This document shows, piece by piece, positions 1,451 to 35,405 of a DNA stretch of 64,000 nucleotides. The position numbers and the translations under genes are program-made. Location of the stretch: contig CM061142.1 in assembly GCA_030789695.1 (NCBI GenBank), positions 276,017,043 through 276,081,042 on the forward strand, written 5' to 3'. Origin of the DNA: Scilla litardierei. Its lineage: Eukaryota > Streptophyta > Magnoliopsida > Asparagales > Asparagaceae. Every line of letters begins with the position of its first letter. Positions within the stretch are counted from its first letter, which is position 1. The notes under the pieces were generated by a model. It was not told where the DNA came from. It saw only the letters and a list, made by a program, of their open reading frames with translations, and did no database searches.

Positions 1451-2037
1451 TGTAACGACCACTTTTCGTCGTACGTTGTTCGTGCACGTGCTTTTGGCCG
1501 TGCACGTGTTTGTTTTAGACTTTAATTGTTTGTGAACACTTTCGTGTGATATGCCATTGTGAACGTCTCTGAGAGTATTAAATAGTGGCACTATCTTGGA
1601 ACGACATTTCTCGAGTCGTTTTCCCACAATTTAATCTTACTCGATGAGACGTGACGATTTTCACTTTTGACGGGAGACGTTTCTATTTTTAGTTTCGTCG
1701 TCCGACGTCGAAATTGAGATCCGTTTTCTTAGTTAGCTCAACTTCATCATCACGATCACCCCGATATTTATTTTATAATTTTTGGAGTTTATTTGACCAC
1801 GTTTATATTTTTAACAAGGTTTATAATATTTTTAATAATTTATTTTTAAATTAATTTCGGCCAAATAAAATTTATTTGAGTTTTAAACGTTTTAAAGAAT
1901 TTTTGAGCCAATTTCCAGCTCATTTGGACCAGGTCAAATCCTTGGGTGAGTTGGAGAAGTTGAATTTCAAATTTTAAATTATTTTTAACTTCTAATCCTA
2001 TTAGATTTAGCCCTAGACCAAGTCCACCCATCTATAC

Positions 2038-2044
2038 TATATAA
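2038..2044 (+). promoter_or_regulatory. TATA box of L1 5' LTR (copy in 3' LTR at 13636-13642)
   Basis: TATATAAG stands in an AT-rich U3 about 590 bp into the LTR and is followed by pyrimidine-rich leader sequence. The same site occurs in both LTRs. The start of transcription is expected near 2070, which would leave a leader of more than 2 kb inside the LTR. Confidence 0.6.
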
Positions 2045-2104
2045 GAAACCCCTAGGAAGACCTATTTTCGCAAGAAATTAGCCCTAGCCTCTTCCAAAAC
2101 CCAA

Positions 2105-2720
2105 ATTGGACGTTGCGACGATTCGTCGCAACGTTGCGACGTTCAGCCACCGCACCGACCGAGAAAACCAACCAAAATCTCCCGCTCCGACCGCTAGCCG
2201 CTCCGCACCCAACCCCGCTCCGCATCGCAGCGCATCGCCCCGCTCCGTTCCCTCGGTCTGACCGAGGGCTTGGCCGCACCCCGCTCGCATCCCCGCTCCG
2301 CACAGCGCTCCGCATCGACCCCGCCCCGTTCACTTGCCTCCGCTCGCGCCTGACCGATCGGGCCGCCCGCACCGACCGACGATTGCAATGCTGCAACGCT
2401 GCAACGTTACAACGTCGCAGCCCTCGCATCCAAGCGCACGACCGACCCGATCCCCCGCTCTGACCGAAGGAAGCCGCCGCACCCGCCTAGCGCCCGCACC
2501 CCGCAGCTGCACAGCCCCGTTCCCCCGCAGCGACCGAGAGAATCTCCCGCATTGGCTGGGTACGACCGAGAGCCATTCGTCGCAACCCCGCATCCGTCGC
2601 ACCACTTGCCTCCGTGGGCCCCCCAAGTTCTCCAGAGGTATTGTGGGTCCCACAAAGGTCCCTAGGACTACTGTGGGCCCCACCTAGGTGCGTTCTCTTC
2701 GACGACTTGCCGCGTACGAC
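2105..2720 (+). other. GC-rich leader segment of L1 (copy at 13703-14320)
   Basis: About 600 bp of CpG-rich sequence begins some 60 bp after the TATA box, in strong contrast to its AT-rich surroundings. It opens with palindromic words built from GTTGCGAC and GTCGCAAC. It gives long open frames on both strands in several phases, but their arginine- and proline-rich composition follows from base content. I see no supported protein. Confidence 0.6.
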
Positions 2721-3100
2721 GTTGCGACACATCATCGCCCGTCGTCGCACGTGCTAGCTTTGGAATCTGGAATCGTCGCCCGGTTGATTGCTCTGAAATT
2801 TTCAGCGAGGAATCTAATTGGAATCTGGACTTGGAGCGCGATATATTATTCCAACCCCCGGCGTCGCTACCCGACGCCGGTGTAGCTTTCGCGTCGTGTT
2901 GAGGTAACGCTTTGCACCCCTAGGACCCCCAACCCAATTGCATGTTAACCAAGACTAAAAATCAGTATTTTAAAGTATTTTAAATGTTTTAGCAATCACT
3001 AATCAAGATTAATAAAACGGATGTAGGCCGGTGGACTTGTGCACGTAGGAATTGTGCCTTTGGACTCGTTGGACGGTGTTTCCCTGACGTGATAATTGCA

Positions 3101-3491
3101 GGCAAGTGAAACTTGCCAAATCTTGTTTAGGGCCATGTTTTTAGGCCACTTCCTTGTTTTTAGCGTAAAAGAGACTAGTCAGTGAAATGATAGCTGGCTA
3201 GACGCCTACTTGATCTAGTTTGACAACGAAACTAGATCCGTCACCTAATTGATCTAGCTTGACAACGAAGCTAGATCCAACCCTTAAACTTGTTGTTCAT
3301 GCATACTAAACTGTCACGTTTACTTTCCTTACTTGTACGCCTTACTACTTGTCTTGTCATGTCATCCATGCATTGAATGTCGCATTCGTAGCACACGCTA
3401 CAATACTTGTACTTGTACTCCCTTGTCTGGCTAGGTGCACCCCTAGACCAACAAGATAAAACACTTCCTGGCTCGTGTTCCAGAAGCGAGC
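3101..3491 (+). ncRNA. Candidate structured leader RNA of L1 (copy starting at 14692)
   Basis: Consecutive hairpins are visible. A: GGCAAGT 3101-3107 with ACTTGCC 3111-3117. B: CTAGTCAG 3175-3182 with CTGGCTAG 3194-3201, loop TGAAATGATAG. C1: GATCTAGTTT 3212-3221 with AAACTAGATC 3229-3238, loop GACAACG. C2: GATCTAGCTT 3251-3260 with AAGCTAGATC 3268-3277, same loop. Later: GTAGC/GCTAC (3388-3401), CTAGG/CCTAG (3431-3446), GCTCG/CGAGC (3471-3491). C1 and C2 differ by a T-A to C-G exchange in the stem. S and L2 LTRs hold the same loops on different stems. The role is unknown; packaging, dimerisation or translation control are possible. Confidence 0.7.
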
Positions 3492-3940
3492 ATTCCCGTT
3501 CGGGGGTAAGGCCCTGGCTCAACACACGTGGAGGGGTAGGGATAAACGATCACTTGAGCTTAGGAGTTGGCCCGCGCAGCCACTCTAGCCAAAAGGCGGA
3601 ATCTCTGTGCACGAGGTGCTTACTTTCCTTGTCTTGTACTTGTCTTGTTGTAACGACTGGTTTTCATGTATCTGGATTTATTATAATATAATATATGTTT
3701 TGGTGGATTTTCTCCTCATGTGTGGTTTTCGTCTCCGTAGCTTTCATTTTCGATCGATTCGTCGTAGTTTCTCGTTTCTTCCTTAGGATTGTCGATTTCG
3801 AAGTATGTCATTCATGACGGACTTCATAACGGTCGTATCTTACTGTTAGATCAAGCCTAGGAGTCTTAGGAATCGATCCCGAAGCTCCGCGCTCCGTATC
3901 GGAACTTTTGGTGCACGTTAGCCAGTATAAGAAGGGGCAC

Positions 3941-4333
3941 CGACCGACTAGATGACGATCCAGTCGGTCGGCAATCCTTCTTGGACCGACTAGTTGGCTT
4001 TCTAAATTATTCAGGAGTTACTGTTTATCGTTAGTCGGTCTAAGAACGTTGGTTGACCGACTAGGTTGCAAACTAGTCGGTCAGCAATGCTTCTTTAACC
4101 GACTAACTCTTCAACTTATTTTTGGTATCAATACTGTTCACTTTTAGTCGGTCTAAGAACGTTCATCGACCGACTAGATGTTAAACTAGTCGGTCAGTAT
4201 TTGTTCATGGACCGACTAAATCTAAATCCTATTTTCGTTCAGAAGTTAATGTTTACACTTAGTCGGTCTGCGTTGGTCGACCGACCGACTAGTTGCCAAA
4301 CTAGTCGGTCAGTGGTTGCTCTTTGACCGACTA
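3941..4333 (+). repeat. S1 promoter-proximal palindrome array (CTAGTCGGTC / GACCGACTAG)
   Basis: Alternating copies of AGTCGGTC and its reverse complement GACCGACT recur with a period of about 113-115 bp (TTAGTCGGTC at 4031, 4144 and 4259). The array ends about 44 bp before the TATA box. S2 has the same array at 7796-8190. Nearly the same unit occurs upstream of the TATA box in C1, a copia element. Confidence 0.9.
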
Positions 4334-4376
4334 ATCTGTGTTAAAACCCTAATTTCTGGGCAGCCGCCAGCCCAAC

Positions 4377-4387
4377 CTATTTATACC
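4377..4387 (+). promoter_or_regulatory. TATA box of S1 (S2 copy at 8234-8241)
   Basis: CTATTTATACC directly follows the palindrome array and precedes a C-rich, AAACCCTAA-containing leader. Position and context agree in S1 and S2. Confidence 0.6.
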
Positions 4388-4653
4388 CTCCCAAACGTTT
4401 TCTTCTTCCTCCACTCGACCTAAAACCCTAAAATCTCCCCCATTGAGCCCCCTTCCACCTCCAACCCTTATTCCTTCATCCCAAGCCCTAGATCCATCAT
4501 CTAAACCCTCCATCAACTCATTCTACCTCTCATCTTCCCCAAAATCTCCCCAAATACCCAAAATCCCCCAAAACCCCTAACTCTCCAAACTTCTCCATTT
4601 GTTTCCAGATCTGGTCCTAGGGTTCTCCGGAGTGTTTCTTCCGCCTCCTCTCG

Positions 4654-4750
4654 GTAAGAAATCGATCTCTCGATGTTTTCATAACCTATTTGTATTTTTA
4701 TAAACCCTAATGAAATTTCATGTTGTTTGATGATTGTTTCCCCATAACAG
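4654..4750 (+). other. Candidate leader intron in S1 (S2 copy 8511-8608)
   Basis: The donor CTCTCG then GTAAGAAAT, a T-rich body and the acceptor CCATAACAG then CGATTTC lie between TATA box and hairpins. The signals are kept in both copies, although S1 and S2 differ elsewhere. Introns in 5' leaders are common in plant genes. Splicing is inferred from signals only. Confidence 0.4.
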
Positions 4751-4812
4751 CGATTTCCCCCGTAGATTAGCATCCGCGAGGCGAACCTTTGTGATCATCA
4801 TCCCCGGTGCTA

Positions 4813-5100
4813 GGCAAGTGAAACTTGCCACTTAGGGTTGGGCCATGTTTTAGGCCATCTTGCTTGTTGTAGGCGTAAAAGAGGCTAGGCGACGAAATGA
4901 TACTCGCCTAGGCGCAATTTGGGGAACTAGCTTGATAACGAAGCTAGTTCCGACATATATCATGTTGCACAATTACCATGTCATGTTTACTTTCCATTAA
5001 CGGTACACGAATTAATTGTCATGTCATTGCATTCCTTAAGTGTTTCTGTGATTGCGTAGCTTCGCTACAATGCTTGTGTTCCTGGCTCGTGTTCCAGAAG
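4813..5100 (+). ncRNA. Candidate structured leader RNA of S1 (S2 copy from 8671)
   Basis: The hairpin series parallels L1. A: GGCAAGT/ACTTGCC at 4813-4829. B: CTAGGCGA 4885-4892 with TCGCCTAG 4904-4911 around a loop containing GAAATGATA. C: GGAACTAGCTT 4923-4933 with AAGCTAGTTCC 4941-4951, loop GATAACG. Then GTAGC/GCTAC (5056-5068). Stem B differs from L1 at several paired positions yet stays fully paired. In S2 the inner part of hairpin C is damaged (8783-8810), so that copy may no longer be under selection. Confidence 0.7.
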
Positions 5101-5666
5101 CGGGCCATGTGTTGGTTGATAGCCAATGCCCGAATTGCTTGTTTCCGGCTAGGTGCACCCCTACGCCAATTGTTTATGAATCGTGATATAGAATGCGAGC
5201 TCCTGTGCGGGGCAACCCCGGCTCACTTGCTGAGCTCATGTGCGGGGACCCTGGCTCGATTACGTGTGGGTATTGGGGGTAAGAGTTAAGCGGCCAATCA
5301 ACTGGGAGTCTGCCCAATCAGCAACTGCAGTGGTAAGGCGTAAACTCTGGGTTTGGGGTAGTTGTTAAGCGGCCAATCAGCGTGAATGTGAAACCATTCA
5401 GCTGTAAGGCGTAAACATCTACAAACAACAGTGAAACGTGAATAGTGAATTGATTGAGATTGTTAGTAGCTTGGCTACTCTTGTCTTGTCCCGATGATTG
5501 TTCTCTTGTACAAATTGTCTCGCCATGTCTTGATTGTGCACTCATGTTATAACTGCCATGTCATGCATACTATAACTGCTAGGTTGCTAGTTGCCTTACT
5601 TTCAGTTTCCTTGCCCAAGTCTTTTAGACTTGCTGACATGTGCCCCTTTACTCTTTTGGGTGACAC

Positions 5667-5774
5667 ATGTTAGATCCTGAGCCTGAGTACCTTGTTGAGG
5701 ACGAGGTGTTTGCTGACGCCGAGCCCGAGCTTGTGTTTGACGGGGAGTACGTGGACACTGGGGACCAGTCCTAG
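5667..5774 (+). CDS. Conserved acidic mini-ORF in the S1 leader (35 aa)
   Basis: ATG 5667 opens a 35-codon frame beginning MLDPEPEYLVEDEV and ending EYVDTGDQS before TAG 5772-5774, strongly acidic. The L1 LTRs have a matching ORF with the same start MLDPEPE and ending FVDTGDQ; the L2 LTRs have a longer acidic relative. The AUG lies in the right arm (CACATGT 5664-5670) of a hairpin whose left arm is ACATGTG 5636-5642. In S2 a 1-base deletion shifts the frame. It may be an upstream ORF that sets translation of gag, or a real small peptide. No known family was recognised. Confidence 0.55.
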   Translation: MLDPEPEYLVEDEVFADAEPELVFDGEYVDTGDQS

Positions 5775-6339
5775 TGTCTTCGTTGTGTTTTCCTTTTGTT
5801 TAGACTGCTTTTTTGTTGTCGGTGCGTGGCACCTATACTTTGTTATGTCGTTGCTTTTGTTGGCCTTGTTCTGAGCCTTTAGACTCTTTCTTTTAGCCTG
5901 GTGGCTTTTCTGGATGTTGGACTTATTTTCATGTTGGACAATTTATGAGATATGAGATTTTATTTCAGTCTCTCCTTGTGTTATTATTGTTATTCAGTTG
6001 TGGTTACAGGGACCTGCTTATGTTTTATTGACGCTTATCGGGTTTGGGGCTTCACAGCTCCACTCTCGTGCGGACCTTTTCACGTCTCGCCTCCATTTTA
6101 GGGAAGCGGGGCGTGACACTTGTGAATGATTCATGTAATACTTGTCATCCATGCCATGTTTAAATACCATGCGCGTACTTTACTTTACTTTACTTTACCT
6201 GCTGCACTCATACTTTAACTGCCATGTCATTGCATCATGCTAGAACTGCTAGGTTGCTTTACTTCCACCTACTTCCAGTTTCCTTGCACAAGTCTTCCAG
6301 ACTTGCTGACATGTGCCCCTTTGCTCTTTTGGGTGTCAC

Positions 6340-6441
6340 ATGTTAGACCCTGAGCCAGAGACAGTTGTTGAGGACGAGGTGGTTGCTGACACTGAGCCTA
6401 CGTTCGTCGAGGAGTTCGTGGACACCGGAGACCAGTTTTAG
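6340..6441 (+). CDS. Conserved acidic mini-ORF in the L1 5' LTR (33 aa)
   Basis: The frame starts MLDPEPE, is rich in Asp and Glu, and ends VDTGDQF before TAG 6439-6441. The 3' LTR copy (15456-15557) is also open; a visible change there replaces Asp by Glu, a conservative exchange. Like S1, the start codon sits in the right arm of a hairpin (ACATGTG/CACATGT) preceded by a stem CAAGTCT/AGACTTG. It lies about 340 bp before the LTR end, so it would be an upstream ORF relative to any gag after the primer site. Confidence 0.5.
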   Translation: MLDPEPETVVEDEVVADTEPTFVEEFVDTGDQF

Positions 6442-6784
6442 AGACTGTTGGCGTTGCTTTTGCTTTAGGTTGCTGTTAGATGTCGGTGCTTGCACCATTA
6501 CTTGTTTCTGTACTTTGTGCTTTTGTTGGCCACGCTCGGCCTCTTTTAGACTCTTTTCTTTTAGCCTGGTGGCTTTTTTTGCGATGTTGGAATTTATTAT
6601 TATGGATATTCTGATATGTTTCTTTTGTCTCTTTTCGTTATTATTATCTTTGTTTCGTTTCGCGTTGCAAGGACCTGCAGTTTAAATTTGATCGACGCTT
6701 ATCGGACTTGCAGCTTTGTAGCTTCAAGTCTGAGCGGACCTTCTCACGCTTCACCTCCACGTTTTTGGGAAGCGGGGCGTGACA

Positions 6785-6931
6785 GGTTTTGTTGGTGGCC
6801 CATGCAGGTCCAATCTTGCAATTGCGAATTAACAAAACAACGATAATAACGGAATGTCCATTAAATAAATTACAACATCTAAGTCATTAAGCTATGGAGT
6901 CTAAATTTTTGTCCGTTTCCTATGTCGTTAG
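6785..6931 (+). other. L1 sequence after 5' LTR (primer-site region)
   Basis: The LTR is followed by GGTTTTGTTGGTGGCCCATG. L2 has GGTTTTAGTGGTGGCCCATG at the same place, so the stretch is conserved. It does not contain the initiator-Met complement TGGTATCAGAGC. A TGG-starting primer site may be offset a few bases into it, but I cannot name the tRNA. Confidence 0.45.
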
Positions 6932-7489
6932 ATGGCGAGAAGACGACAGACTCGAGTTGGTGGCGAACCTACTCTGAAGACTTGCTATTTCTGTGGTAAG
7001 ACCGGGCACATCAAGGAGAAGTGCAGAAGCTTTCTAGGCCGGTGTTTGAGTTATGGTGCTGCTACTCATTCAGCGAAGGATTGTCGGCATGTAAATCAAT
7101 TGCGGAAAGCATCGGAGGGAATTCCGCAGCAGGAAGCACCAGTAACTGGGCCAAGTCGGAAGGTGTGCCATCATTGTAGCAAGATTGGTCATGAGAAGAA
7201 ACAGTGCAGGAAGAGGCTGGGCCAGTGCCTGATTTGTGGAGATCCTACTCATACTATGAAGGAGTGTCTGAAGTCTAACCAACCTTGGAAGGAACCCATC
7301 GCTGCACAGCCGTTACAGAAGAAAGCACCTGTACCTACCAGTCGTGGACCAGCCCTCGCTCCACAGAGGCAGGCTTTTCAGCAGGCCATGCAGCCAAAGG
7401 AGCAGGCTTATCCGATGACGGCAGTGGAGAGCGAGACTGAGGATGAGGTTATCGCAGGTAACTCTCGACCTAGTTGTTTCTTCCCTTAG
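6932..7489 (+). CDS. L1 zinc-knuckle protein (gag remnant, 185 aa)
   Basis: The protein has a basic start (MARRRQTR) and two pairs of retroviral-type zinc knuckles. Knuckle 1 is CYFCGKTGHIKEKC (residues 18-31). Knuckle 2 at 38-51 has Tyr in place of the second Cys. Knuckle 3 is CHHCSKIGHEKKQC (79-92) and knuckle 4 is CLICGDPTHTMKEC (99-112). A Pro/Gln-rich tail follows. Such CX2CX4HX4C modules bind RNA in gag nucleocapsid. The capsid part of gag and all of pol are absent, so this is a trimmed gag or a stand-alone RNA-binding product. The ORF ends just 15 bp before S2. Confidence 0.75.
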   Translation: MARRRQTRVGGEPTLKTCYFCGKTGHIKEKCRSFLGRCLSYGAATHSAKDCRHVNQLRKASEGIPQQEAPVTGPSRKVCHHCSKIGHEKKQCRKRLGQCLICGDPTHTMKECLKSNQPWKEPIAAQPLQKKAPVPTSRGPALAPQRQAFQQAMQPKEQAYPMTAVESETEDEVIAGNSRPSCFFP

Positions 7490-7504: not shown

Positions 7505-9927
7505 TGTAATGACTGGTTTTCATGTATCTGGATTTATTATAATATAATATATGTTTTGGTGGATTTTCTCCTCATGTGTGGTTTTCGTCTCCGTAGCTTT
7601 CATTTTCGATCGATTCGTCGTATTTTCTCGTTTCTTCCTTAGGATTGTCGATTTCGAAGTATGTCATTCGTGACGGACTTCATAACGGTCGTATCTTACT
7701 GTTAGATTAAGCCTAGGAGTCTTAGGAATCGATCCCGGAGCTCCGAGCTCCGTATCGGAACTTTTGGTGCACGTTAGCCGGTATAAGAAGGGGCACCGAC
7801 CGACTAGATGACGATCCAGTCGGTCGGCAATCCTTCTTGGACCGACTAGTTGGCTTTCTAAATTATTTAGAAGTTACTGTTTATCGTTAGTCGGTCTAAG
7901 AACGTTGGTTGACCGACTAGGTTGCAAACTAGTCGGTCAGCAATGCTTCTTTAACCGACTAACTCTTCAACTAAATTTTAGTATCAATACTGTTCACTCT
8001 TAGTCGGTCTAAGTTCATCTCTCGACCGACTAGATGTAAAACTAGTCGGTCAGTAGTTGTTCATTGATCGACTAAATCTAAAACCTATTTTCGTTCAGAA
8101 GTTACTGTTTACACTTAGTCGGTCTGTGTTGGTCGACCGACCGACTAGTTGCCAAACTAGTCGGTCGGTGGTTGCTCTTTGACCGACTAATCTGTGTTAA
8201 AACCCTAATTTCTGGGCAGCCGCCAGCCCATCCTATTTATACCCCTCCCAAACGTTTTCTTCTTCCTCCACTCGACCCAAAACCCTAGTTTCTCCCCCAT
8301 TGAGCCCTCATCTTCCTCCAAGCCTTATTCCTTCATCCCAAGCCCTAGATCCATCATCTAAATCCTCCATCCACTCATTCTACCTCTCATTTTCCCCAAA
8401 ATCTCACCAAATCCCCAAAATCCCCCAAAAACCCTAATTCTCCAAACTTCTCCATTTGTTTCCAGATCTGGTCCCTAGGTTCTCTGGAGTGTTTCTTCCA
8501 CCTCCTCTCGGTAAGAAATTGATCTCTTGATGTTTTCATAACCTATTTGTATTTTTATGAAACCCTAATGAAATTTCATGTTGTTTGATGATTGTTTCCC
8601 CATAACAGCGATTTCCCCCGTAGATTAGCATCCGCGAGACGAACCTTCGTGATCGTCATCCCCGGTGCTAGGCAAGTGAAACTTGCCACTTAGGGTTAGG
8701 GCCATGTTTTAGGCCATCTTGCTTGTTGTAGGCGTAAAAGAGGCTAGGCGACGAAATGATACTCGCCTAGGCGCAAATTGGGGAACTAGCTGGACAACGA
8801 AACTAGTTCCGACATATATCATGTTGCACAATTACCATGTCATGTTTAAATTCCATTAACGATACGCGAATTAATTGTCATGTCATTGCATTCTTTAAGT
8901 GATCCCGTGATTGCGTAGCATCGCTACAATACTTGTGTTCCTGGCTCGTGACCAGAAGCGAGCATAATGAGTTGCTAACCCCAACGCTCGATATTGAATT
9001 GTGAACTAAGAAAAAATCTCCCGTGCGGGGCAACCCTGGCTCACTTGCTGGGCTCATGTACAGGGACCCTGGCTTGTTTACGTGTGGGATGGCGTAAGGG
9101 TTAAGCGGCCATTCAACTGGGAGTCTGCCCGATCAGCAACTGCAGTTGTAAGGTGTAAACTCTGGGGTGGGGTAGTGTTTAGTGCCGATCGGCGTGAATG
9201 TTGTACCATTCAGCTGAAGGGCGTAAACATCTACAAACAACGTGAAACGTGAATAGTGAATTGATTGAGATTGTTAGTAGCTTGGCTACTCTTGTCTTGT
9301 CCCGTTAATTGTTCTCTTGTACTTATTGTTCACCATGTCTTGCTTGTGCACTCATGTTATAACTGCCATGTCATGCATACTATAACTGCTAGGTTGTTAG
9401 TTGCCTTACTTTCAGTTTCCTTGCCCAAGTCTTTTAGACTTGCTGACATGTGCCCCTTTACTCTTTTGGGTGACACATGTTAGATCCTGAGCCTGAGTCC
9501 TTGTTGAGGACGAGGTGTTTGCTGACGCCGAGCCCGAGCTTGTGTTTGACGGGGAGTACGTGGACACTGGGGACCAGTCCTAGTGTCTTCGTTGTGTTTT
9601 CCTTTTGTTTAGACCGCTGTTTTGTTGTCGGTGCGTGGCACCTATACTTTGTTATGTCGTTGCTTTTGTTGGCCTTGTTCTGGGCCTTTAGACTCCTTCT
9701 TTTAGCCTGGTGGCTTTTCGGGATGTTGGACTTATTTTCATGTTGGACAATTTATGAGATATGAGATTTTATTTCAGTCTCTCCTTGTGTTATTATTGTT
9801 ATTCCGTTGTGGTTACAGGGACCTGCTTATGTTTTATTGACGCTTATCGGGTTTGGGGCTTCACAGCTCCACTCTCGTGCGGACCTTTTCACGTCTCGCC
9901 TCCATTTTAGGGAAGCGGGGCGTGACA
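7505..9927 (+). mobile_element. S2: second solo LTR of the S family
   Basis: It is 2423 bp from TGTAATGACTGG to GGGGCGTGACA, with flanking CTTGT at 7500-7504 and 9928-9932. It is collinear with S1 across palindrome array (7796-8190), TATA, candidate intron and hairpins, with scattered small differences. It sits in the internal region of L1 right after the zinc-knuckle ORF. Its mini-ORF (ATG 9477) is shifted by a 1-base deletion relative to S1. Confidence 0.92.
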
Positions 9928-13048: not shown

Positions 13049-15900
13049 TGTAACGACCACTTTTCGTCGTACGTTGTTCGTGCACGTGCTTTTGGCCGTG
13101 CACGTGTTTGTTTTAGACTTTAATTGTTTGTGAACACTTTCGTGTGATATGCCGTTGTGAACGTCTCTGAGAGTATTAAATAGTGGCACTATCTTGGAAC
13201 GACATTTCTCGAGTCGTTTTCCCACAATTTAATCTTACTCGATGAGACGTGACGATTTTCACTTTTGACGGGAGACGTTTCTATTTTTAGTTTCGTCGTC
13301 CGACGTCGAAATTGAGATCCGTCTTCTTAGTTAGCTCAAATTCGTCATCACGATCACCCCGATATTTATTTTATAATTTTTGGAGTTTATTTGACCACTT
13401 TTATATTTTTAACAAGGTTTATAATATTTTTAATAATTTATTTTTAAATTAATTTCGGCCAAATAAAATTTATTTGAGTTTTAAACGTTTTAAAGAATTT
13501 TTGAGCCAATTTCCAGGTCATTTGGACCAGGTCAAATCCTTGGGTGAGTTGGAGAAGTTGAATTTCAAATTTTAAATTATTTTAAACTTCTAATCCTATT
13601 AGATTTAGCCCTAGACCAAGTCCACCCATCTATACTATATAAGCAACCCCTAGGAAGACCTATTTTCGCAAGAAATTAGCCCTAGCCTCTTCCAAAACCC
13701 AAATTGGACGTTGCGACGATTCGTCGCAACGTTGCGACGTTCAGCCACCGCACCGACCGAGAAAACCAACCAAAATCTCCCGCTCCGATCGCTAGCCACT
13801 CCGCACCCAACCCCGCTCCGCATCGCAGCGCATCGCCCCGCTCCGTTCCCTCGGTCTGACCGAGGGCTTGGCCGAACCCCGCTCGCATCCCCGCTCCGCA
13901 CAGCGCTCCACATCGACCCCGCCCCGTTCACTTGCCTCCGCTCACGCCTGACCGATCGGGCCGCCCGCACCGACCGACGATTGCAACGCTGCAACGTTGC
14001 AACGTCGCAGCCCTCGCATCCAAGCGCACGACCGACCCGATCCCCCGCTCTGACCGAAGGAAGCCCCCGCACCCGCCTAGCGCCCGCACCCCGCAGCTGC
14101 ACAACCTAGTTCCCCCGCAGCGACCGAGAGAATCTCCCGCATTGGCTGGGTACGACCGAGAGCCATTCGTCGCAACCCCGCATCCGTCGCACCACTTGCC
14201 TCCGTGGGCCCCCCAAGTTCTCCAGAGGTATTGTGGATCCCCCAAAGGTCCCTAGGACTACTGTGGGCCCCACCTAGGTGCGTTCTCTTCGACGACTTGC
14301 CGCGTACGACGTTGCGACACGTCGTCGCCCGTCGTCGCACATGCTAGCTTTGGAATCTGGAATCGTCGCCCGGTTGATTGCTCTGAAATTTTCAGCGAGG
14401 AATCTAATTTGAATCTGGACTTGGAGCGCGATATTATTATTCCAACCCCCGGCGTCGCTACCCGACGCCGGTGTAGCTTTCGCGTCGTGTTAAGGTAACG
14501 CTTTGCACCCCTAGAACCCCCAACCCAATTGCATGTTAACCAAGACTAAAAATCAGTATTTTAAAGTATTTTAAATGTTTTAGCAATCACTAATCAAGAT
14601 TAATAAAACGGATGTAGGCCGGTGGACTTGTGCACGTAGGAATTGTGCCTTTGGACTCGTTGGACGGTGTTTCCCTGACGTGATAATTGCAGGCAAGTGA
14701 AACTTGCCAAATCTTGTTTAGGGCCATGTTTTTAGGCCACTTCCTTGTTTTTAGCGTAAAAGAGACTAGTCAGTGAAATGATAGCTGGCTAGACGCCTAC
14801 TTGATCTAGTTTGACAACGAAACTAGATCCGTCACCTAATTGATCTAGCTTGACAACGAAGCTAGATCCAACCCTTAAACTTGTTGTTCATGCATACTAA
14901 ACTGTCACGTTTACTTTCCTTACTTGTACGCCTTACTACTTGTCTTGTCATGTCATCCATGCATTGAATGTCGCATTCGTAGCACACGCTACAATACTTG
15001 TACTTGTACTCCCTTGTCTGGCTAGGTGCACCCCTAGACCAACAAGATAAAACACTTCCTGGCTCGTGTTCCAGAAGCGAGCATTCCCGTTCGGGGGTAA
15101 GGCCCTGGCTCGACACACGTGGAGGGGTAGGGATAAACGATCACTTGAGCTTAGGAGTTGGCCCGCGCAGCCACTCTAGCCAAAAGGCGGAATCTCTGTG
15201 CACGAGGTGCTTACTTTCCTTGTCTTGTACTTGTCTTGTGAATGATTCATGTAATACTTGTCATCCATGCCATGTTTAAATACCATGCTCGTACTTTACT
15301 TTACTTTACTTTACCTGCTGCACTCATACTTTAACTGCCATGTCATTGCATCATGCTAGAACTGCTAGGTTGATTTACTTCCACCAACTTCCAGTTTCCT
15401 TGCACAAGTCTTCCAGACTTGCTGACATGTGCCTCTTTGCTCTTTTGGGTGTCACATGTTAGACCCTGAGCCAGAGACAGTTGTTGAGGACGAGGTGGTT
15501 GCTGAAACTGAGCCTACGTTCGTCGAGGAGTTCGTGGACACCGGAGACCAGTTTTAGAGACTGTTGGCGTTGCTTTTGCTTTAGGTTGCTGTTAGATGTC
15601 GGTGCTTGCACCATTACTTGTTTCTGTACTTTGTGCTTTTGTTGGCCACGCTCGGCCTCTTTTAGACTCTTTTCTTTTAGCCTGGTGGCTTTTTTTGCGA
15701 TGTTGGAATTTATTATTATGGATATTCTGAGATGTTTCTTTTGTCTCTTTTCGTTATTATTATCTTTGTTTCGTTTCGCGTTGCAAGGACCTGCAGTTTA
15801 AATTTGATCGACGCTTATCGGACTTGCAGCTTTGTAGCTTCAAGTCTGAGCGAACCTTCTCACGCTTTGCCTCCACGTTTTTGGGAAGCGGGGCGTGACA
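13049..15900 (+). repeat. L1 3' LTR
   Basis: This is an uninterrupted 2852-bp copy of the L1 LTR from TGTAACGACC to CGTGACA. It keeps TATA box (13636), GC-rich leader, hairpins (14692-14868 and on), mini-ORF (15456-15557) and conserved terminus. It is the reference for the pre-insertion site of S1. Divergence from the 5' LTR is low by eye. Confidence 0.93.
15456..15557 (+). CDS. Acidic mini-ORF in the L1 3' LTR (33 aa)
   Basis: This copy of the ORF at 6340-6441 has the same length. One change turns an Asp codon into Glu; the frame, start and stop are kept. See the S1 and L2 counterparts. Confidence 0.5.
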   Translation: MLDPEPETVVEDEVVAETEPTFVEEFVDTGDQF

Positions 15901-15973: not shown

Positions 15974-16223
15974 GTAATTATTGCTTCGGCTGTCACGTCC
16001 CGCTTCCCAAAAATACGGAGGCGAAGCGTGACTAAGGCCCGCTTAGGCCGGAGCTGTGAAGCTCGGACCCAATAAGCGTCTGTAGGGGTACCATTTTAAA
16101 AAATTTCAGGTTCTTGCATTTATAAAGTTCGAAACAACAGGAAGTACAGAAGAAAAGTTGCATTCATTAATATAATTAATATCCAACGAGTACAAAGTCT
16201 AAGAGAGGAAAGCCTAAGCATGG

Positions 16224-16391
16224 CTACAAACTATCGAAAAAGCAACTAAAGTAGTAACCTCTGAAAGTGGCGATCGAAAAGTCCTCAAAGTCTGAATCCT
16301 CATCAGGCACGTACTCTGGATCGACGTCCTCGGGCTCCACGTACTCCGATAAGTCTGTCGTGTCCTCGAACTCTGGCTTGACACCTGACAT
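16224..16391 (-). CDS. Acidic mini-ORF in the L2 3' LTR (55 aa)
   Basis: The frame starts MSGVKPEFEDTTDLSEYVEP, is rich in Asp, Glu and Tyr, and ends in an aromatic tail before the stop 16224-16226. The L2 5' LTR copy (29791-29958) is open too, with a few amino-acid changes. The AUG is in the arm of a 13-bp hairpin (16383-16395 with 16414-16426). It is the positional and compositional counterpart of the S and L1 mini-ORFs, though sequence identity is modest. Confidence 0.5.
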   Translation of the reverse strand: MSGVKPEFEDTTDLSEYVEPEDVDPEYVPDEDSDFEDFSIATFRGYYFSCFFDSL

Positions 16392-16800
16392 ACAGTACCC
16401 AAGAGAAAAGAAACTGTACGTCAGGTAAAGTCTACAAGAAGGGTTAGACTCTACTGCAAGTGCACCAACTATTAAACAATGGTTTACTGGTTGATTAGCA
16501 TGCTGGGGTTATAACAGATGTTTTACTGGTTGTTTAGCATGCTGAGGTTATAACAGGATGACAACAGAAAGTAAACGCAGCAGGGAAGTAAAACACGACA
16601 AGTAGTAGTCGTAGCGTGTGCTACCAACTACGGGACTAACCTACAGGTGTCAAGACAAGTCGGGACGTGACGGGACAAGACAAGACAAGTGAGACACGAA
16701 AGGGTTCACGCCTTACGGTTAGAGGGGGATCAGACCCTCTTGCCGTGCGCACGCTCAACCCAACCCCAAACCCCAAGGATGACAAGACAAGACAATCACG

Positions 16801-17040
16801 ACAAGGGATCACTCTCTCTAGCTTGGCGAGTGCCCTATTGCCCTCTGGGATGTGTATCAGTACAAGGGATCACTCACTCTAGCTTGGTGAGTGCCCTATT
16901 GCCCGCAGGCTGTGAATCAGTACAAGGGATCACTCTCTCTAGCTTGGAGAGTGCCATATTGCCCGCAGGCTGTGAATCAGTACAAGGGATCACTCTCTCT
17001 AGCTTGGAGAGTGCCCTATTGCCCGCAGGCTGTACAAGAT
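16801..17040 (-). repeat. Four 60-bp tandem repeats in the L2 LTR (copy 30373-30612)
   Basis: Units start at 16801, 16862, 16922 and 16982, each with ACAAGGGATCACTC and a hairpin around TCTAGCTTG. Stem arms are CACTCTC/GAGAGTG in two units and CACTCAC/GTGAGTG in another, a paired change. The first unit (arm ending GCGAGTG) pairs less well. They lie in the leader between the mini-ORF and the shared hairpins. Confidence 0.85.
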
Positions 17041-17136
17041 GAGACGGGACGTGACAAGACGGGAAGGGTTATTCTAGGGTGTCCACACACATGCACACAC
17101 ATGATAGCCCTACGATGTCAAAAGTTGTTGTTGTCA

Positions 17137-17279
17137 GGCTCAGACTTCGTCGTCAAGTCCGAGCCGTCAGGGGTCGTCCCGGACGCTATCATTTCACGTC
17201 CGGTTCTCTTGTTCACAGTTAACAGTTCTAACAAACTAAGGCCTAAACACGGCCAAAAGTGCAAGTGGATACACTTGCC
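17137..17279 (-). ncRNA. Candidate structured leader RNA of L2 (5' LTR copy 30709-30851)
   Basis: On the minus strand the order is the same as in L1. Hairpin A: GGCAAGTG with CACTTGC (17261-17279). Hairpin B: CCGGACG with CGTCCGG (17179-17185, 17197-17203), loop TGAAATGATAG, identical to the L1 loop. Hairpin C: GGCTCGGACTT with AAGTCTGAGCC (17137-17165), loop GACGACG. Stems B and C share almost no sequence with those of L1 and S, yet pair fully, with one G-U in the sense RNA. Confidence 0.7.
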
Positions 17280-18436
17280 TGCGATGGCGAGTGTGTCGTC
17301 CTCTCGAAGCGTCTCGTCCAAGCATCTCGTCCGCGGTAGTCCGTCTGAAACAAGGGGGTCACGGCGACGTTGTCAGGTCGTGATTTTCAATAAACCTATT
17401 TAGGTTCATTTCTAGGTTAAGCGTGGCTACCCTAACAGTCACATATCAAAATGTCCATTTAGCCTATTCGACGATTCTATCCTATGTGCACAGTTAAAAC
17501 AGTCCGATCGTCGATCTACGGTTCCACATCATTTTAAAGAAGCAGAAAGTAAATTTAATGATTAAGTTGCCAATTTTAATTAGGTTTTCTATACTACGAT
17601 GTGGGTTGTAAGATGACGATGGGGGACTAACCGTTGATGTAACGAATGTGGGTAGCGACGACGTGTACGTTCCCAAACAGCGACACGTGCCTCGGTGTTT
17701 ATTGTCACAACCTTAAGAATTCCGGCGTGGTCGGACGGAAGGCGTGACCATCTCTGCGTCATAAGATTTAATTATTAGGTTAAACGAATTTACTTGATTA
17801 AGGTCATAACCACACATCTTACGTTACATGCAAGTTATTAAACTTAACTTGTATATTATACATGTATATACTAATATGTTAACTACATATGTAAATATTT
17901 ACTAACAGTTCATGAACTACAAGTTATCAGCCCCACTGTACCAATATTATTGAAACTTGATATAGCAACTAGGTTATCGTTAATGGCTCATACCAACTTC
18001 TCATATAAACAGCTACCACTAAACTTATATGCATTAACATATAGGGCTGTTAGAACTATTACACTTATAAAGTAAATATCAACTCATGCTTAACAGTGTG
18101 TACAAACATATAATGAGTACAACCTACTGAATTAGTAATCATCTGACATCAAAAAAATGGGTTAACAACTAACAGCAGCTTAACTTTTATTATAAAACTT
18201 AATATTATATTGAAGCTAATACACTGATGTAGTAAACCTAACATCCTCGTCATTATAAATACCCCATTTCCAATAATAAACTCACAAAGGTCCATAACAT
18301 AACAATTATAAAACTAACACTATAAAAATGACACCAATGAACCGATATAAACCATTATCATTTAATAACCAACTACTACTCTGCCATTAACATTTGCCAT
18401 TCTAACTTAATAAGGCATGCCTGGAAAAAGGCTTAC

Positions 18437-19170
18437 GTGTGGGAGCTTAAGTGCTTGCAGCAGAAACGGCGGGTGGAGCGCTGCTGGGTTGCGCGCGGTG
18501 GAGGAGGAGGCTTAGGAGGAGAAGATCGGAGCGGCGCGGTGGCGACGAGATCAGCGGGGCGTGGGGCGGCTGCTCGAGGAAGGAGGCGACGGCATGGCGA
18601 TGGGGAGAGAATCGCGAGCTCGACGGCAGGTCAGAGAGCTGGAAATCGACAGGGATGCGCGTGACTGGGGCTGCCAGATGACGGTTAACAGGCAGAGGGT
18701 AAGCGCGGCCGGGCGATGAACGGATCGGGGAGATCGAAGGACGGCGAGGATGAAGGCGTAGGCCGCTCGGCGGCGGGGTGAGGCGAGGTTGGCGCGGTCT
18801 GGGAAACCGAAACAGTGTGCAATGGAGGTAGAACGTCGAAACGATCTCGCTGGAGCGTTGGACGTTGTGATGGCCGGCCTGGGAGAGTTGTCGAAGGGCG
18901 GTGTCGCCGGCCTGAGGGTGATCGGAGCAGTGGGGGTTTTGGCTGAGTGGAGGTGTGACGGCGGAGGCTTGGGCATTTGATAGATGGCGCGGCTGAAGGG
19001 CGACTCGCACGGCCTGTGCGAGAGGGAGGGAGTCGATGGCGGATGGGTTTCGACGAAAATGCCGGAGGTGCTCGCGGAGGGGATGAAGGTGGCGGCCTGG
19101 GTTTCGGTTTTGAAAAGAAAAGCCTAGGGCTTGCTCTCATACTGGCTTTTGTAGGGGAGAGTATCACGTG
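18437..19170 (-). other. GC-rich segment of the L2 LTR (copy 32009-32742)
   Basis: About 730 bp of GC-rich DNA inside an otherwise AT-rich LTR. It gives overlapping open frames on both strands with Pro/Ser/Arg-rich or Gly/Arg-rich composition, which is explained by base content. No domain was recognised. Its position in the LTR resembles the GC-rich leader of L1, though the sequences differ. Confidence 0.55.
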
Positions 19171-19714
19171 GGGTGAGGGAGCGTGGAGGAGATCATGGTC
19201 TGTTAGGATTAATAACAGGTTAGTTTTTAAAAAAATTAGATTTTATAAACAGGCTTGATTTGATTGCTGTTAGGATATTATAATTTGTGGATTAGATTCG
19301 GGGAGTGGGGTGATTTCGTGAGATAGGGGAAAAGATATGGGTACGGTTGTAGGTCAAGATATTTAGGGGATTTATTTAAAGATTTGATATGAGAAAATTT
19401 ACTTTCAGTTTGAATTTGAATTGAAAAACTTATGGTTAAAATAATATTTAAAAAAATGTCCAATCCACTCTCTACCTTTGCTGATCCTAATCGTCCATAT
19501 CATCCTACTATCTCGTGCTTAATCTAACTTAGACATGTAGTGCCCTGTGGTAGCTACTGCACACGTACTAGAGGGGGGTGAATAGTACTTAAAATAATCA
19601 AGATAGTTATTCCTAATTATTGTGCAAGAAACAAACGACAATGCGGAATTAAACAACTATCAACAAGAATTAAAACATACGCAAACAAACAATATTACTG
19701 GGTTCGGATCCACC

Positions 19715-20281: not shown

Positions 20282-20335
20282 GGGGCAAGAGAAATCGAGT
20301 TTGAAAGAATCCCAACGGCTCTATTCTGAAGCAGA

Positions 20336-20864
20336 CTAGTCGGTCAAAGAAGGATCACTGACCGACTAGTTCATCAACTAGTCGGTCGGTGAAACAACGT
20401 AGACCAACTAACGGTAGAACAGCCAAGAAGTCGAAGTACATGCAAAGACAACTAGTCGGTCTAAGAAGACTTGCCGACCGACTAGTTTCACAACTAGTCG
20501 GTCGGTGAATGATCTTTGACCGACTGACGTTGAAATAGAATAGGTAGACTTCAAGTTGACTTAGTCGGTTTAAGAAAAAATGCTGACCGACTAGTTTCTC
20601 AACTAGTCGGTCGGTAAATGTTCTTTGACCGACTAACTCGAAACAGTAGCTCAGGCTGAAAATGACTGTACACAACTAGTCGGTCTGAGAAGGACTCCTG
20701 ACCGACTAGATTGTCATCTAGTCGGTCGGTGACTCTTCTTTGACCGACTAACTGTAGTCATGGAAAGAGCTGAATATAGAGAAGGCAAACTAGTCGGTTC
20801 ATGTAGAGTTACCGACCGACTAGATCGTCATCTAGTCGGTTGGTGACTCTTCTTGAACCAACTA
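20336..20864 (-). repeat. C1 promoter-proximal palindrome array (copy 25531-26060)
   Basis: Five units with CTAGTCGG-type starts at 20336, 20452, 20561, 20677 and 20790 (period 109-116 bp), each holding direct and inverted copies of AGTCGGTC. Read toward its own TATA box, a 32-base stretch (20452-20483) matches S1 3962-3993 at 29 positions. Confidence 0.9.
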
Positions 20865-21267
20865 ACATGCACTCGAAGCCGAGGGAAGAAGCGATAGGCT
20901 TCGGGAAAGTTTCTAATGGCTTCTATGATAATCCTAGCTCTAAGATATGAGCGAAATGAAGATTATAAAGTAAGTCCTACTCAAGGCTTAACATTCTAAT
21001 CTATGAAGCTAGAAGACTATAAAAATCAACCTTACGAGCCGTCTTCAAAGCTTCAATCTTCATTCCTCTTGACTTCAATATTGCTCCTTGAGCTTCAACG
21101 AAGCTCCAGGCACACGATCACGCGTATTGAGAAGTCTTGAGACGTCGCTTTTGTTGTACGTGGTATTTTGGCGACGATCTCCATAACTGCGCTCACAAAT
21201 AAGTTAGTATCCATTATTTATGTTTGCTCATCATCCAAAACCAAATCCGGGGAACCATATCACAACA

Positions 21268-24730: not shown

Positions 24731-26462
24731 TGTAGTGCCCTGTGGTAGCTACTGCACACGTACTAGAGGGGGGGGTGAATAGTACTTAAAATAATCAAGA
24801 TAGTTATTCCTTATTATTGTGCAAGAAACAAACGACAATGCGGAATTAAACAACTATCAACAAGAATTAAAACATACGCAAACAAACAATATTACTGGGT
24901 TCGGATCCACCCAAGTCTCCCCGACTTGTTCCCGGTGATCCTACGTCCCAACCACCCGGATCCCCTCCGGATACTTGAGTTAGCAACCCTAACTCAAGAT
25001 TTCCACTATGAAGTACTTGTGAACAACCTTCACAAGTCAAATCATACACAAAGTAATTTGTGACTCCCACAACCCGGGATCACAACCACACTCTCACAAC
25101 CGAGAGTGAAACTTACAATTCAAATATGAAATGAAATAAACTCTTACCTTACAAAATCCTATGCCTTGAGTATACTTACCAAATTAGGGCAATGATGGAT
25201 TTTGAGGAAGAGGATGTCACCAAACCCTAGCTTCAAGAAGATGACCAGCAAAGGAAGCCTAGGGTGGAGTATGGTGACCAGGATCAAGCTCTTGGCTTGA
25301 GAAGCTCACAATGGAGAGAATCTCTCTTGAGGAATTAGGGCTCAAGGTGTTGAGGGAGAGATTCTTGTGAGGGAGAGAGCTTTGAATTAGCTTGGGAGAG
25401 CTCTTCTCTTAGGTCTGAAATTGCTTGGAAATAGGACCTCTAACCCCTCTTCAAACGAATCAGGATTCTATTTAAAGGGGCAAGAGAAATCGAGTTTGAA
25501 AGAATCCCAACGGCTCTATTCTGAAGCAGACTAGTCGGTCAAAGAAGGATCACTGACCGACTAGTTCATCAACTAGTCGGTCGGTGATACAACGTAGACC
25601 GACTAACGGTAGAACAGCCAAGAAGTCGAAGTACATGCAAAGATAACTAGTCGGTCTAAGAAGACTTGCCGACCGACTAGTTTCACAACTAGTCGGTCGG
25701 TGAATGATCTTTGACCGACTGACGTTGAAATAGAATAGGTAGACTTCAAGTTGACTTAGTCGGTTTAAGAAAAAATGCTGACCGACTAGTTTCTCAACTA
25801 GTCGGTCGGTAAATGTTCTTTGACCGACTAACTCGAAACAGTAGCTCAGGCTGAAAATGACTGTACACAACTAGTCGGTCTGAGAAGGACTCCTGACCGA
25901 CTAGATTGTCATCTAGTCGGTCGGTGACTCTTCTTTGACCGACTAACTGTAGTCATGGAAAGAGCTGAATATATAGAAGGCAAACTAGTCGGTTCATGTA
26001 GAGTTGCCGACCGACTAGATCGTCATCTAGTCGGTTGGTGACTCTTCTTGAACCAACTAACATGCATTCGAAGCCGAGGGAAGAAGCGATAGGCTTCGGG
26101 AAAGTTTCTAATGGCTTCTATGATAATCCTAGCTCTAAGATATGAGCAAAATGAAGATTATAAAGTAAGTCCTACTCAAGGCTTAACATTCTAATCTATG
26201 AAGCTAGAAGACTATAAAAATCAACCTTACGAGCCGTCTTCAAAGCTTCAATCTTCATTCCTCTTGACTTCAATATTGCTCCTTGAGCTTCAACGAAGCT
26301 CCAGGCACACGATCACGCGTATTGAGAAGTCTTGAGACGTCGCTTTTGTTGTACGTGGTATTTTGGCGACGATCTCCATAACTGCGCTCACAAATAAGTT
26401 AGTATCCATTATTTATGTTTGCTCATCATCCAAAACCAAATCCGGGGAACCATATCACAACA
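24731..26462 (-). repeat. C1 5' LTR
   Basis: 1732 bp, matching 19536-21267 with about a dozen differences, many of them transitions. It carries the palindrome array (25531-26060), TATA-like box and leader hairpins (24912-25108). Confidence 0.92.
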
Positions 26463-26996
26463 AGACATTCTTATTGCATAATTTATGGTTAAAAGTTTTA
26501 TTATTATGTATCTTATTTCCTATTTCTTTTTTTTTGATTGCATTAACCCTTCTTATTGTCAGTTTGCATTGTCTTTGTCCACCGAGTCTGTACACGAATT
26601 TTATTATCCAAATCTTATTATGAAACCTTGAGGTTTAAAGAGAAAAAGGATTTGATTAAGATTATATAAAGAGTTAAGATTTGAGTTAATCCATAGGTTA
26701 GAGTTTAAAGTATATAATAATTAATGGTTGGCATAAAAGAGACGCACAGACCTCTCTGAGTAAAAATAAATAAATGAATGTTATAAAATGATCAATATGG
26801 AATATGCAACTAGGTCCCTTGACGTCCAAAAATAACAACGAAAATACCAGGATGATCGTGCCTCCGAGAGGATTGAGGAAACGGGATCCGGTCACGCGTC
26901 TGAGCTACGGAAAATAACAATAAAGCCAAATACGAATATTCCCACACGAAACAAGACACTCACAAAAATGCGTACAACCGGAAAGTGGTCGTTACA

Positions 26997-32500: not shown

Positions 32501-33634
32501 AGTGGGGGTTTTGGCTGAGTGGAGGTGTGACGGCGGAGGCTTGGGCATTTGATAGATGGCGCGGCTGAAGGGCGACTCGCACGGCCTGTGCGAGAGGGAG
32601 GGAGTCGATGGCGGATGGGTTTCGACGAAAATGCCGGAGGTGCTCGCGGAGGGGATGAAGGTGGCGGCCTGGGTTTCGGTTTTGAAAAGAAAAGCCTAGG
32701 GCTTGCTCTCATACTGGCTTTTGTAGGGGAGAGTATCACGTGGGGTGAGGGAGCGTGGAGGAGATCATGGTCTGTTAGGATTAATAACAGGTTAGTTTTT
32801 AAAAAAATTAGATTTTATAAACAGGCTTGATTTGATTGCTGTTAGGATATTATAATTTGTGGATTAGATTCGGGGAGTGGGGTGATTTCGTGAGATAGGG
32901 GAAAAGATATGGGTACGGTTGTAGGTCAAGATATTTAGGGGATTTATTTAAAGATTTGATATGAGAAAATTTACTTTCAGTTTGAATTTGAATTGAAAAA
33001 CTTATGGTTAAAATAATATTTAAAAAAATGTCCAATCCACTCTCTACCTTTGCTGATCCTAATCGTCCATATCATCCTACTATCTCGTGCTTAATCTAAC
33101 TTAGACATTCTTATTGCACAATTTATGGTTAAAAGTTTTATTATTATGTATCTTATTTCCTATTTCTTTTTTTTGATTGCATTAACCCTTCTTATTGTCA
33201 GTTTGCATTGTCTTTGTCCACCGAGTCTGTACACGAATTTTATTATCCAAATCTTATTATGAAACCTTGAGGTTTAAAGAGAAAAAGGATTTGATTAAGA
33301 TTATATAAAGAGTTAAGATTTGAGTTAATCCATAGGTTAGAGTTTAAAGTATATAATAATTAATGGTTGGCATAAAAGAGACGCACAGACCTCTCTGAGT
33401 AAAAATAAATAAATGAATGTTATAAAATGATCAATATGGAATATGCAACTAGGCCCCTTGACGTCCAAAAATAACAACGAAAATACCGGGACGATCGCGC
33501 CTCCGAGAGGATCGAGGAAACGGGATCCGGTCACGCGTCTGAGCTACGAAAATAACAATAAAGCCAAATACGAATATTCCCACACGAAACATGACACTCA
33601 CAAAAATGCGTACAACCAGAAAGTGGTCGTTACA
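29558..33634 (-). repeat. L2 5' LTR
   Basis: 4077 bp, uninterrupted. It has the same order of parts as the 3' LTR: mini-ORF, 60-bp repeats (30373-30612), hairpins (30709-30851), AT-rich part and GC-rich segment (32009-32742). It preserves the empty target site of C1 (TTAGACATTC near 33105). Confidence 0.93.
29791..29958 (-). CDS. Acidic mini-ORF in the L2 5' LTR (55 aa)
   Basis: This is the copy of 16224-16391 that would lie in the leader of the genomic RNA. The frame is open with the same length and stop. Compared with the 3' LTR it has changes such as Lys to Glu near the start and Pro to Leu in the middle. It begins MSGVEPEFEDTTDLSEYVEP. Confidence 0.5.
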   Translation of the reverse strand: MSGVEPEFEDTTDLSEYVEPEDVDLEYVPDEDSDFEDYSVATFRGYYFSCFFDSL

Positions 33635-35189: not shown

Positions 35190-35405
35190 GGTCAGGATCG
35201 TCTAACCTTGCAATACTAACAACAAACACTCTAGAGGGGGGTGAATAGAGTAATGGCGATAAATTGTGCAATTAAAATTAAACTTGCAAATGCGGAATAA
35301 TAAGTGCAAGAGGAATTAAACAACACAATCAATCCAAACGCAAACAAAAGATTTTACCCTGGTTCCCCAAACTTGGGTACGTCCAGCCACACCAATATCC
35401 ACTAT

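Follow-up and report, generated by a model that had tools for sequence, protein, structure and literature searches.

A candidate leader RNA element with constant loops on exchangeable stems in LTR retrotransposons of Scilla litardierei, and its possible role as a mark of unspliced RNA

LTR families of the window and their gag-bearing relative

The window, that is, the whole 64-kb stretch of Scilla litardierei nuclear DNA analysed here, carries three families of long terminal repeats (LTRs), L1, S1 and L2, which have their termini in common, starting with TGTAA(C/T)GAC and ending with GGG(G/A)CGTGACA, a pattern of LTR ends that gave 0 matches in viral contigs. The L1 element lies on the forward strand; its 5′ LTR begins with TGTAACGAC and is broken into two parts (1451-3644 and 6119-6784, the latter ending in GGGGCGTGACA), and its 3′ LTR (13049-15900, +) is an unbroken copy, which gives an LTR length of about 2.85 kb. 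The two S1 copies, a (3649-6118, +) and b (7505-9927, +), of about 2.4-2.5 kb each, are both nested in L1 with the identical 5-bp flank CTTGT on each side, and would fit either a pair of independent solo LTRs with a preferred target or one rearranged element. On the minus strand, L2 has a 5′ LTR of about 4.1 kb (29558-33634) and a 3′ LTR that is split by a nested element (15991-19536 plus about 26463-26998).

As to coding capacity, the L1 interior holds a zinc-knuckle (CCHC) open reading frame (ORF) of 185 aa (6932-7489, +), for which no protein relative was found at E<=0.001 among 38 candidates, and the L2 interior, about 2.56 kb long, is overlapped by no stop-to-stop frame longer than 86 aa. 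With its LTRs of about 4.1 kb and an interior without coding capacity, L2 has the form of a LARD; L1 is not one, as its 185-aa CCHC ORF gives it a protein-coding interior, and we take it to stand nearer to the gag-only derivatives of the TR-GAG type. Between the interiors of L1 (6785-13048) and L2 (26999-29557), similarity reaches 62-67% over blocks of 132-207 aligned bp, so that further cis signals may persist outside the LTR.

A gag-bearing relative, locus L042, connects these elements with a known superfamily. It carries the leader block described below in an L2-type LTR, upstream of a Ty3-type Gag ORF (PF03732, E 5.8e-19; PF19259, E 7.5e-14), and both its leader and the end of its LTR run colinear with the L2 LTR (71-74% identity), an insertion of about 1.66 kb separating the two. 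The LTR is followed by the same primer-site-like stretch and the Gag ORF, then by stops in frame, with a zinc-knuckle start beyond. L042 is the one member in which a Ty3-type Gag was found just after the LTR and primer-site region of an element with the leader, and its gag piece begins with the same MARRR as the L1 zinc-knuckle ORF; therefore, the block occurs in a Ty3/gypsy element as well as in elements that look derived, and it is not restricted to coding-poor ones. The best reading, from one gag-bearing copy, is that the leader RNA element would belong to a single Ty3/gypsy lineage with tens of thousands of matches.

Several further repeats were observed in the window. Tandem repeats of about 113 bp with GACCGACTAG/CTAGTCGGTC hairpins occur upstream of the S1 TATA-like box (3906-4350 and 7762-8206) and in a nested copia-type LTR pair (about 20329-20866 and 25519-26066), and thus appear to be promoter-like repeats common to different elements. 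Arrays of 57-58-bp tandem repeats (34520-35203 and 41868-42807) adjoin a copia-type LTR pair, the first of them being open as a 193-aa frame (34541-35122); a copia-type gag ORF in the window has 11 protein matches, some of them from Acer negundo, Trifolium and Tanacetum; and a long inverted repeat (50490-51254) has arms of 312 nt that are 89% complementary around a spacer of 141 nt.

A leader block with constant loops and changing stems

The leader block occurs twice in each family. In the L1 5′ LTR it spans 3101-3277 (+) and consists of hairpin A (3101-3117), a GGCC hairpin (3131-3147), the stretch AAAAGAG, hairpin B (3175-3201) and two hairpins of type C, C1 (3212-3238) and C2 (3251-3277); its second copy lies in the L1 3′ LTR (14692-14868, +). 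S1 copy a has the block at 4813-4951 (+), with A at 4813-4829, B at 4885-4911 and C at 4923-4951, and S1 copy b at 8671-8810 (+); in L2 it lies at 30709-30851 in the 5′ LTR and at 17137-17279 in the 3′ LTR, both on the minus strand. Hairpins A, B and C are thus located in the LTRs of the three families where a previous sequence-only reading had placed them, and its claim of constant loops holds as well: loop B is GAAATGATA in all six window copies (3183-3193 in L1), and loop C occurs in three GAYRACG variants, GACAACG, GATAACG and GACGACG. The loops and the flanking AAGAG are constant across L1, S1 and L2 while the stems vary, and hairpin A and the GGCC hairpin are largely conserved in sequence. 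An outer GCGT/ACGC stem around B, present in L1 and S1, is absent from L2 when compared by eye and was dropped.

In the alignment of the three LTR families, the block is 46-50% identical in all three, compared with 45% for the LTR start and up to 59% for parts of the tail; most windows of the alignment upstream of the block reach 14-36%, and a few short ones more. By blastn, the block was matched between L1 and S1, and L2 was joined to them by the tail only, not by the block. TATA-like boxes lie upstream of the block in L1 (TATATAAG, 2038-2045, +, LTR position 588-590) and S1 (TATTTATA, 4378-4385, +, LTR position 730), which makes the proposed place of the block downstream of a TATA box plausible by sequence for these two families; in L2 the many TATA-like sites make it ambiguous. 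Judged by sequence, the block would sit in a transcript leader.

The predicted folds are stable: the leaders of L1, S1 and L2 fold 4.1-5.1 SD below their dinucleotide shuffles (z of -5.1, -4.3 and -4.1, respectively), and for each of them 0 of 200 shuffles was as stable. Covariation in the window was assessed on the four distinct rows (L1, S1a, S1b and L2) over the 19 pairs of stems B and C. Of 76 cells, 72 are paired, and 12 of the 19 pairs have changed on both sides and still pair (6 of 8 in B and 6 of 11 in C), a number that none of 500 shuffles reached and that fell to 0-1 when the partner was slid by 1-3 columns. The compensatory stems that had been claimed are therefore present overall, with the exception of stem C in S1 copy b, where two pairs are broken. 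Seven of the 12 pairs with double changes in the pair table of L1, S1 and L2 show a transversion on each side, which cytosine deamination alone is insufficient to explain. A covariance model trained without L2 recovered both L2 copies (52.4 bits, E 7e-13). Column shuffles can be beaten by related sequences, and a tree-aware test, which allows for relatedness, is given in the next section. Outside the plant, the loop pattern matched in viral (10) and prokaryotic (19) contigs, and none of these 29 matches had both stems, the longest B stem and the longest C stem being 5 pairs each, in different records.

The block resembles no named element in the sources covered, as had been supposed. Rfam gave 0 families at the gathering cutoff in the 64-kb window; below the cutoff, L1 had two hits, both on the other strand and the best of them at 21.9 bits against a cutoff of 77, and L2 had none up to E 10. 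A hammerhead retrozyme was considered and rejected, no match to it being found at Rfam gathering scores in the window. Among the open-access papers listed, judged by title and the start of the abstract, none describes the element, and neither 'packaging signal' nor 'secondary structure' is used (0 occurrences each) in the main text of a review from 2025 on the host factors of LTR retrotransposons in plants (PMC12786077).

Downstream of the hairpins, two other features of the LTRs were observed. A small acidic ORF lies at 15456-15557 (+) in the L1 3′ LTR, with the product MLDPEPETVVEDEVVAETEPTFVEEFVDTGDQF, at 5667-5774 (+) in S1 copy a, where the product ends in DTGDQS, and at about 29791-29958 (-) in L2, with a product of 55 aa. 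It was found in three of eight leaders scanned (L038, L057 and, on the minus strand, L047) and not in L046, L051 or L042, the other two lying too near the end of the stretch. Rough dN/dS values of 0.21-0.74 in 14 of 15 pairs among six such ORFs, the remaining pair being undefined by saturation, hint at a conserved LTR-encoded microprotein, against which stand the shifted frame of S1 copy b and the number of scanned leaders without the ORF. The L2 LTRs also carry, on the minus strand at 16848-17093 and 30420-30665, a tandem array of four units, about 60 bp long and with a hairpin around CAAGCTA in each; in the 3′ LTR, one unit has matching changes in its arms (CACTCTC/GAGAGTG vs CACTCAC/GTGAGTG) and another an unmatched change, and the units are possibly further structured RNA downstream of hairpin C.

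Copies across the genome and tree-aware covariation

The search of the 3.68-Gb assembly (7,266 contigs) returned 39,788 exact matches to the loop pattern, compared with 10 for the reversed pattern. With the L1 leader as a DNA query, 791 candidates were obtained, and 39 of the 40 that were scored match the full 177 nt at 100%. The covariance model, run on 20 stretches of 10 kb, found eight leaders in seven of the stretches; one stretch, L046, borders on the window and was not drawn at random, and two further weak matches (E 0.9 and 4.9) were dropped. Loop B is GAAATGATA in six of these eight leaders and GAAAGGATA in two (L051 and L057), which probably represent a sister family, the model itself favouring loops that resemble these two.

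The rows for the alignment were picked by eye among the matches listed, about 100 per pattern, and comprise 54 distinct rows of 39,788 matches, 86 of 2,099 and 11 of 1,077, so that a few distinct rows may be missing. Rows selected by a pattern, including the 60 loci L058-L117 taken from the 2,099-match pattern, had to carry the fixed loop letters, and their loop conservation is therefore partly by construction. The 2,099-match pattern forced one arm position to be other than G and thus favours decayed copies: 65 of its 86 rows are unpaired at that position, the change being mostly G to A, which we read as the decay of dead copies. The hairpins are perfect or nearly so in many copies, and pairing is kept between families, as selection on active founders predicts.

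For the tree-aware null, the substitutions of each branch were dropped on other columns with the same base, using a FastTree tree and Fitch states, in a re-implementation of the R-scape type of test, not R-scape itself. The final set combined 72 rows from the window and the loci, 11 from the 1,077-match pattern and those rows of the 39,788-match pattern that passed a motif filter, giving 135 rows, of which 124 are unique and 78 remain after thinning. In the sets of 124 and 78 rows, 16 and 17 branches are compensated, respectively, compared with null means of 1.0-1.9 overall (1.1-1.7 for the 124 rows) and with null maxima of 5-7 and 4-8; 88% and 86% of the cells are paired, compared with null means of 45-50%; and the helix pairs account for 7 and 8 of the 19 column pairs with the best scores. 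The summed helix score of the 78 thinned rows is 388, against a null maximum of 107. Taken singly, one of the 19 pairs, in hairpin C, has E<0.05 in these sets, and no off-helix pair does. Three compensated branches involve a transversion, compared with a null maximum of 2-3, which is no clear excess, and the transversion argument therefore depends on the deep divergence of L1, S1 and L2 from one another.

For single pairs, other row sets weigh against the result. Fifty-six rows dominated by close relatives had no significant pair; 31 diverse rows had one, with 23 compensated branches (null mean 2.3, maximum 7); and 75 mixed rows had none, with 21 compensated branches (null mean 2.6, maximum 6). 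In the tests of 31 and 75 rows, hairpin C of row L058 was misaligned, and the rows were extracted anew for the test of 124. A further alignment had been fitted to the structure of the model, so that the test on it is biased towards that structure and carries no weight here. As the excess is helix-wide and 18 of the 19 pairs are non-significant alone, it is the whole helices that are supported and not their individual pairs. The covariation expected by the sequence-only reading was thus obtained for the helices and for one single pair, and its main proposal, selection on an RNA structure common to several LTR families, is borne out helix-wide. The structure of hairpins B and C is well supported.

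A possible mark of unspliced RNA and its relation to known systems

At the foot of hairpin A stands the sequence YAG/GCAAGTG (the slash marks the putative splice point), which pairs with a downstream ACTTGC-like arm and the first part of which, YAG/GCAAGT, we take to be the consensus of GC-type splice donors. In L1, CAG/GCAAGT (3099-3107, +) is a putative GC-type 5′ splice donor, and a putative 3′ splice acceptor is the TAG at 6929-6931 (+), which is preceded by a T-rich stretch and immediately adjoins the ATG at 6932; L042 likewise has a TAG after a T-rich stretch, one base before the gag ATG. YAG/GCAAGT is exact in 53 of 72 rows, altered in 18 (CAG/GTAAGT in one of them) and absent from one, and its YAG lies mostly outside the stem and is conserved while the letters further upstream differ between families. 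Two unspliced copies, L119 and L122, also have YAG at the gag start, the ATG being altered in L122; they make up two of the four acceptor-like sites, but were retrieved by a pattern that contains CAG there and thus give no independent support for the acceptor, which lowers the odds of the reading slightly. A search for a retro-copied L1 splice junction returned nine matches, each with two mismatches (four for the reversed control), and among the five loci read, three were unrelated, two were the unspliced copies just named and none was a copy of the junction.

The distribution of ATGs bears on the same question. Upstream of the donor, L1 has one ATG where 7.1 are expected (833 nt) or, over the whole 1,033 nt, four where 11.2 are expected, and in each case 0.2% of shuffles are as low. 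The putative exon of S1 (304 nt) has none (2.1 expected; the shortage in S1 is not significant, at 0 against 1.0 and 0 against 1.1), and its intron-like piece of 99 nt has four, with 2.6 expected. Downstream of the donor, ATGs are as frequent as expected in L1 and S1; L2 has two upstream, with 2.5 expected and so no shortage, and five downstream, with 9.3 expected, which is few, if anything. For the L1-like families, YAG/GCAAGT and the shortage of ATGs would fit a spliced gag mRNA, which is not proof of one. In the S1 group, the T at position -3 suits an acceptor (YAG/G) better than a donor, and several other rows have a purine-rich stretch before the YAG, which is poor for an acceptor.

Based on these findings, we tentatively propose that the block is a cis-acting leader RNA element with a splice donor masked in hairpin A and with hairpins B and C as marks of the unspliced RNA for its packaging or dimerisation, a reading to which we give a probability of roughly 0.43. 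The block would stand in the 5′ leader of one Ty3/gypsy lineage and in that of the coding-poor elements dependent on it, and hairpin A would hide the GC-type donor at the end of a leader that, in L1, has few ATGs. In some transcripts the donor could be joined to the acceptor at the gag ATG, producing a gag mRNA with a short leader and without hairpins B and C, and unspliced transcripts would retain B, C, the LTR tail and the presumed primer site. The near-fixed single-stranded AAGAG, loop GAAATGATA and loop GAYRACG, carried on exchangeable stems, would then constitute the mark of the genomic RNA, read for packaging by Gag, for dimerisation, or for both; a protein or a partner RNA would be expected to recognise just such near-fixed unpaired letters on free stems. 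As L2 keeps the block without an interior protein gene, the block is probably a cis-acting signal for a function that is provided in trans, for which packaging or dimerisation by the Gag of the lineage is the likeliest candidate and export the next. We infer in this way that the block is transcribed, takes part in splicing and serves packaging or dimerisation. The more specific proposal, a retrovirus-like switch in which the GC-type donor hidden in hairpin A would determine whether a transcript becomes gag mRNA or genomic RNA, and in which B and C are a packaging signal that coding-poor elements have retained and that has aided their spread to very high copy number, is doubtful, with the odds leaning against it.

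Among the other explanations, it is unlikely that hairpins B and C form a nuclear export element that recruits export factors for unspliced RNA, as do the RTE of mouse IAP and the MTE of musD; the same anatomy would be expected, namely a structured element confined to unspliced RNA and needed by coding-poor copies, and these two elements are a precedent treated in the 2025 review (PMC12786077), but no Rfam family was found at the cutoff in the window. We also think it improbable that the YAG is the acceptor of an upstream leader intron, by which A, B and C would be the exon start of every mature mRNA and an element of translation or stability. The YAG/G with a pyrimidine at -3, the T- or C-containing stretch upstream of it in L1 and many L2-type rows, and an intron-like segment GTAAG...ACAG upstream in S1 would agree with such an acceptor; however, the S1 segment ends at 4750, 62 nt before the YAG, the stretch before the YAG is purine-rich in several rows (L038 and L077), and no depletion of ATGs is seen downstream of the block in L1 and S1.

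A role in translation control, wherein the AUG of loop B opens a short upstream ORF and the hairpins guide ribosome shunting or reinitiation, appears very unlikely. The four-codon frames of L1 and S1 (MIAG and MILA) do stop within the 3′ arm, but the corresponding frame of L2 has 24 codons, L2 offers no interior frame above 86 aa to be served, and the two of eight model-found leaders with GAAAGGATA are without an AUG in the loop, which counts against a start-codon role. Least probable of all are two further explanations. Template switching or deamination might keep the arms of palindromes complementary without selection, as the many perfect or near-perfect hairpins, the forced-position changes of mostly G to A and the few transversional compensated branches would allow, but the loops and AAGAG are fixed across L1, S1 and L2 while the stems differ, the majority of the double changes in the window are transversional on both sides, and the frequent loss of pairing at the forced position means that no such upkeep is visible on single copies. 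A role at the level of DNA or small RNA, as a cruciform, a protein site or an siRNA precursor, has in its favour the palindromic DNA and the fact that the best sub-threshold Rfam hit at L1 is a miRNA model, but constant unpaired loops on exchangeable stems suit a single-stranded fold, and Dicer substrates generally have stems longer than the 8-11 bp found here.

If the packaging or dimerisation reading is true, it would provide a simple molecular reason for coding-poor elements living off a gag-bearing lineage, the block being a candidate tag that marks element RNA for copying. The candidate is compact and defined by sequence, and a single genome supplies natural variants of its stems, so that packaging, dimerisation, export and splicing are all testable by stem exchange.

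Among known systems, the proposed layout resembles the psi and major splice donor region of retroviruses, wherein the donor lies in a hairpin and the packaging hairpins downstream of it are carried by unspliced RNA only. The same arrangement of donor and hairpins is proposed here in a plant element, likened by layout and not by sequence kinship, and to our knowledge the loops GAAATGATA and GAYRACG are not among the known retroviral motifs. The mouse RTE and MTE, cis elements of LTR elements that the review describes as acting on unspliced or full-length RNA (PMC12786077), are likened to the block by role, not by structure. In plants, a report on barley notes that fairly little is known of packaged RNA outside BARE, and describes for BARE1 a spliced gag-only RNA beside a separate packaged pool of unspliced RNA, the packaging in trans of the Gag-less BARE2, and, in a mention, conserved dimerisation and packaging signals (PMC3735527). 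BARE1 and BARE2 are Ty1/copia elements, whereas the lineage of the leader block is placed in Ty3/gypsy, a different superfamily; and the BARE1 intron, as given in that report, has 104 nt, lies at the end of gag and uses a GT donor, whereas the putative donor here is of the GC type and lies in the LTR leader, within a hairpin. The retrozymes, with hammerhead ribozymes in the LTRs of about 350 bp of non-autonomous plant elements, as their report describes (PMC4918200), are likewise structured RNA in LTRs, whereas the LTRs here measure 2.5-4.1 kb and match no Rfam family at the cutoff. Finally, with regard to LARDs and TRIMs, L2 shares the LARD form, and the fold reported here lies in the LTR and is carried by a gag-bearing element as well.
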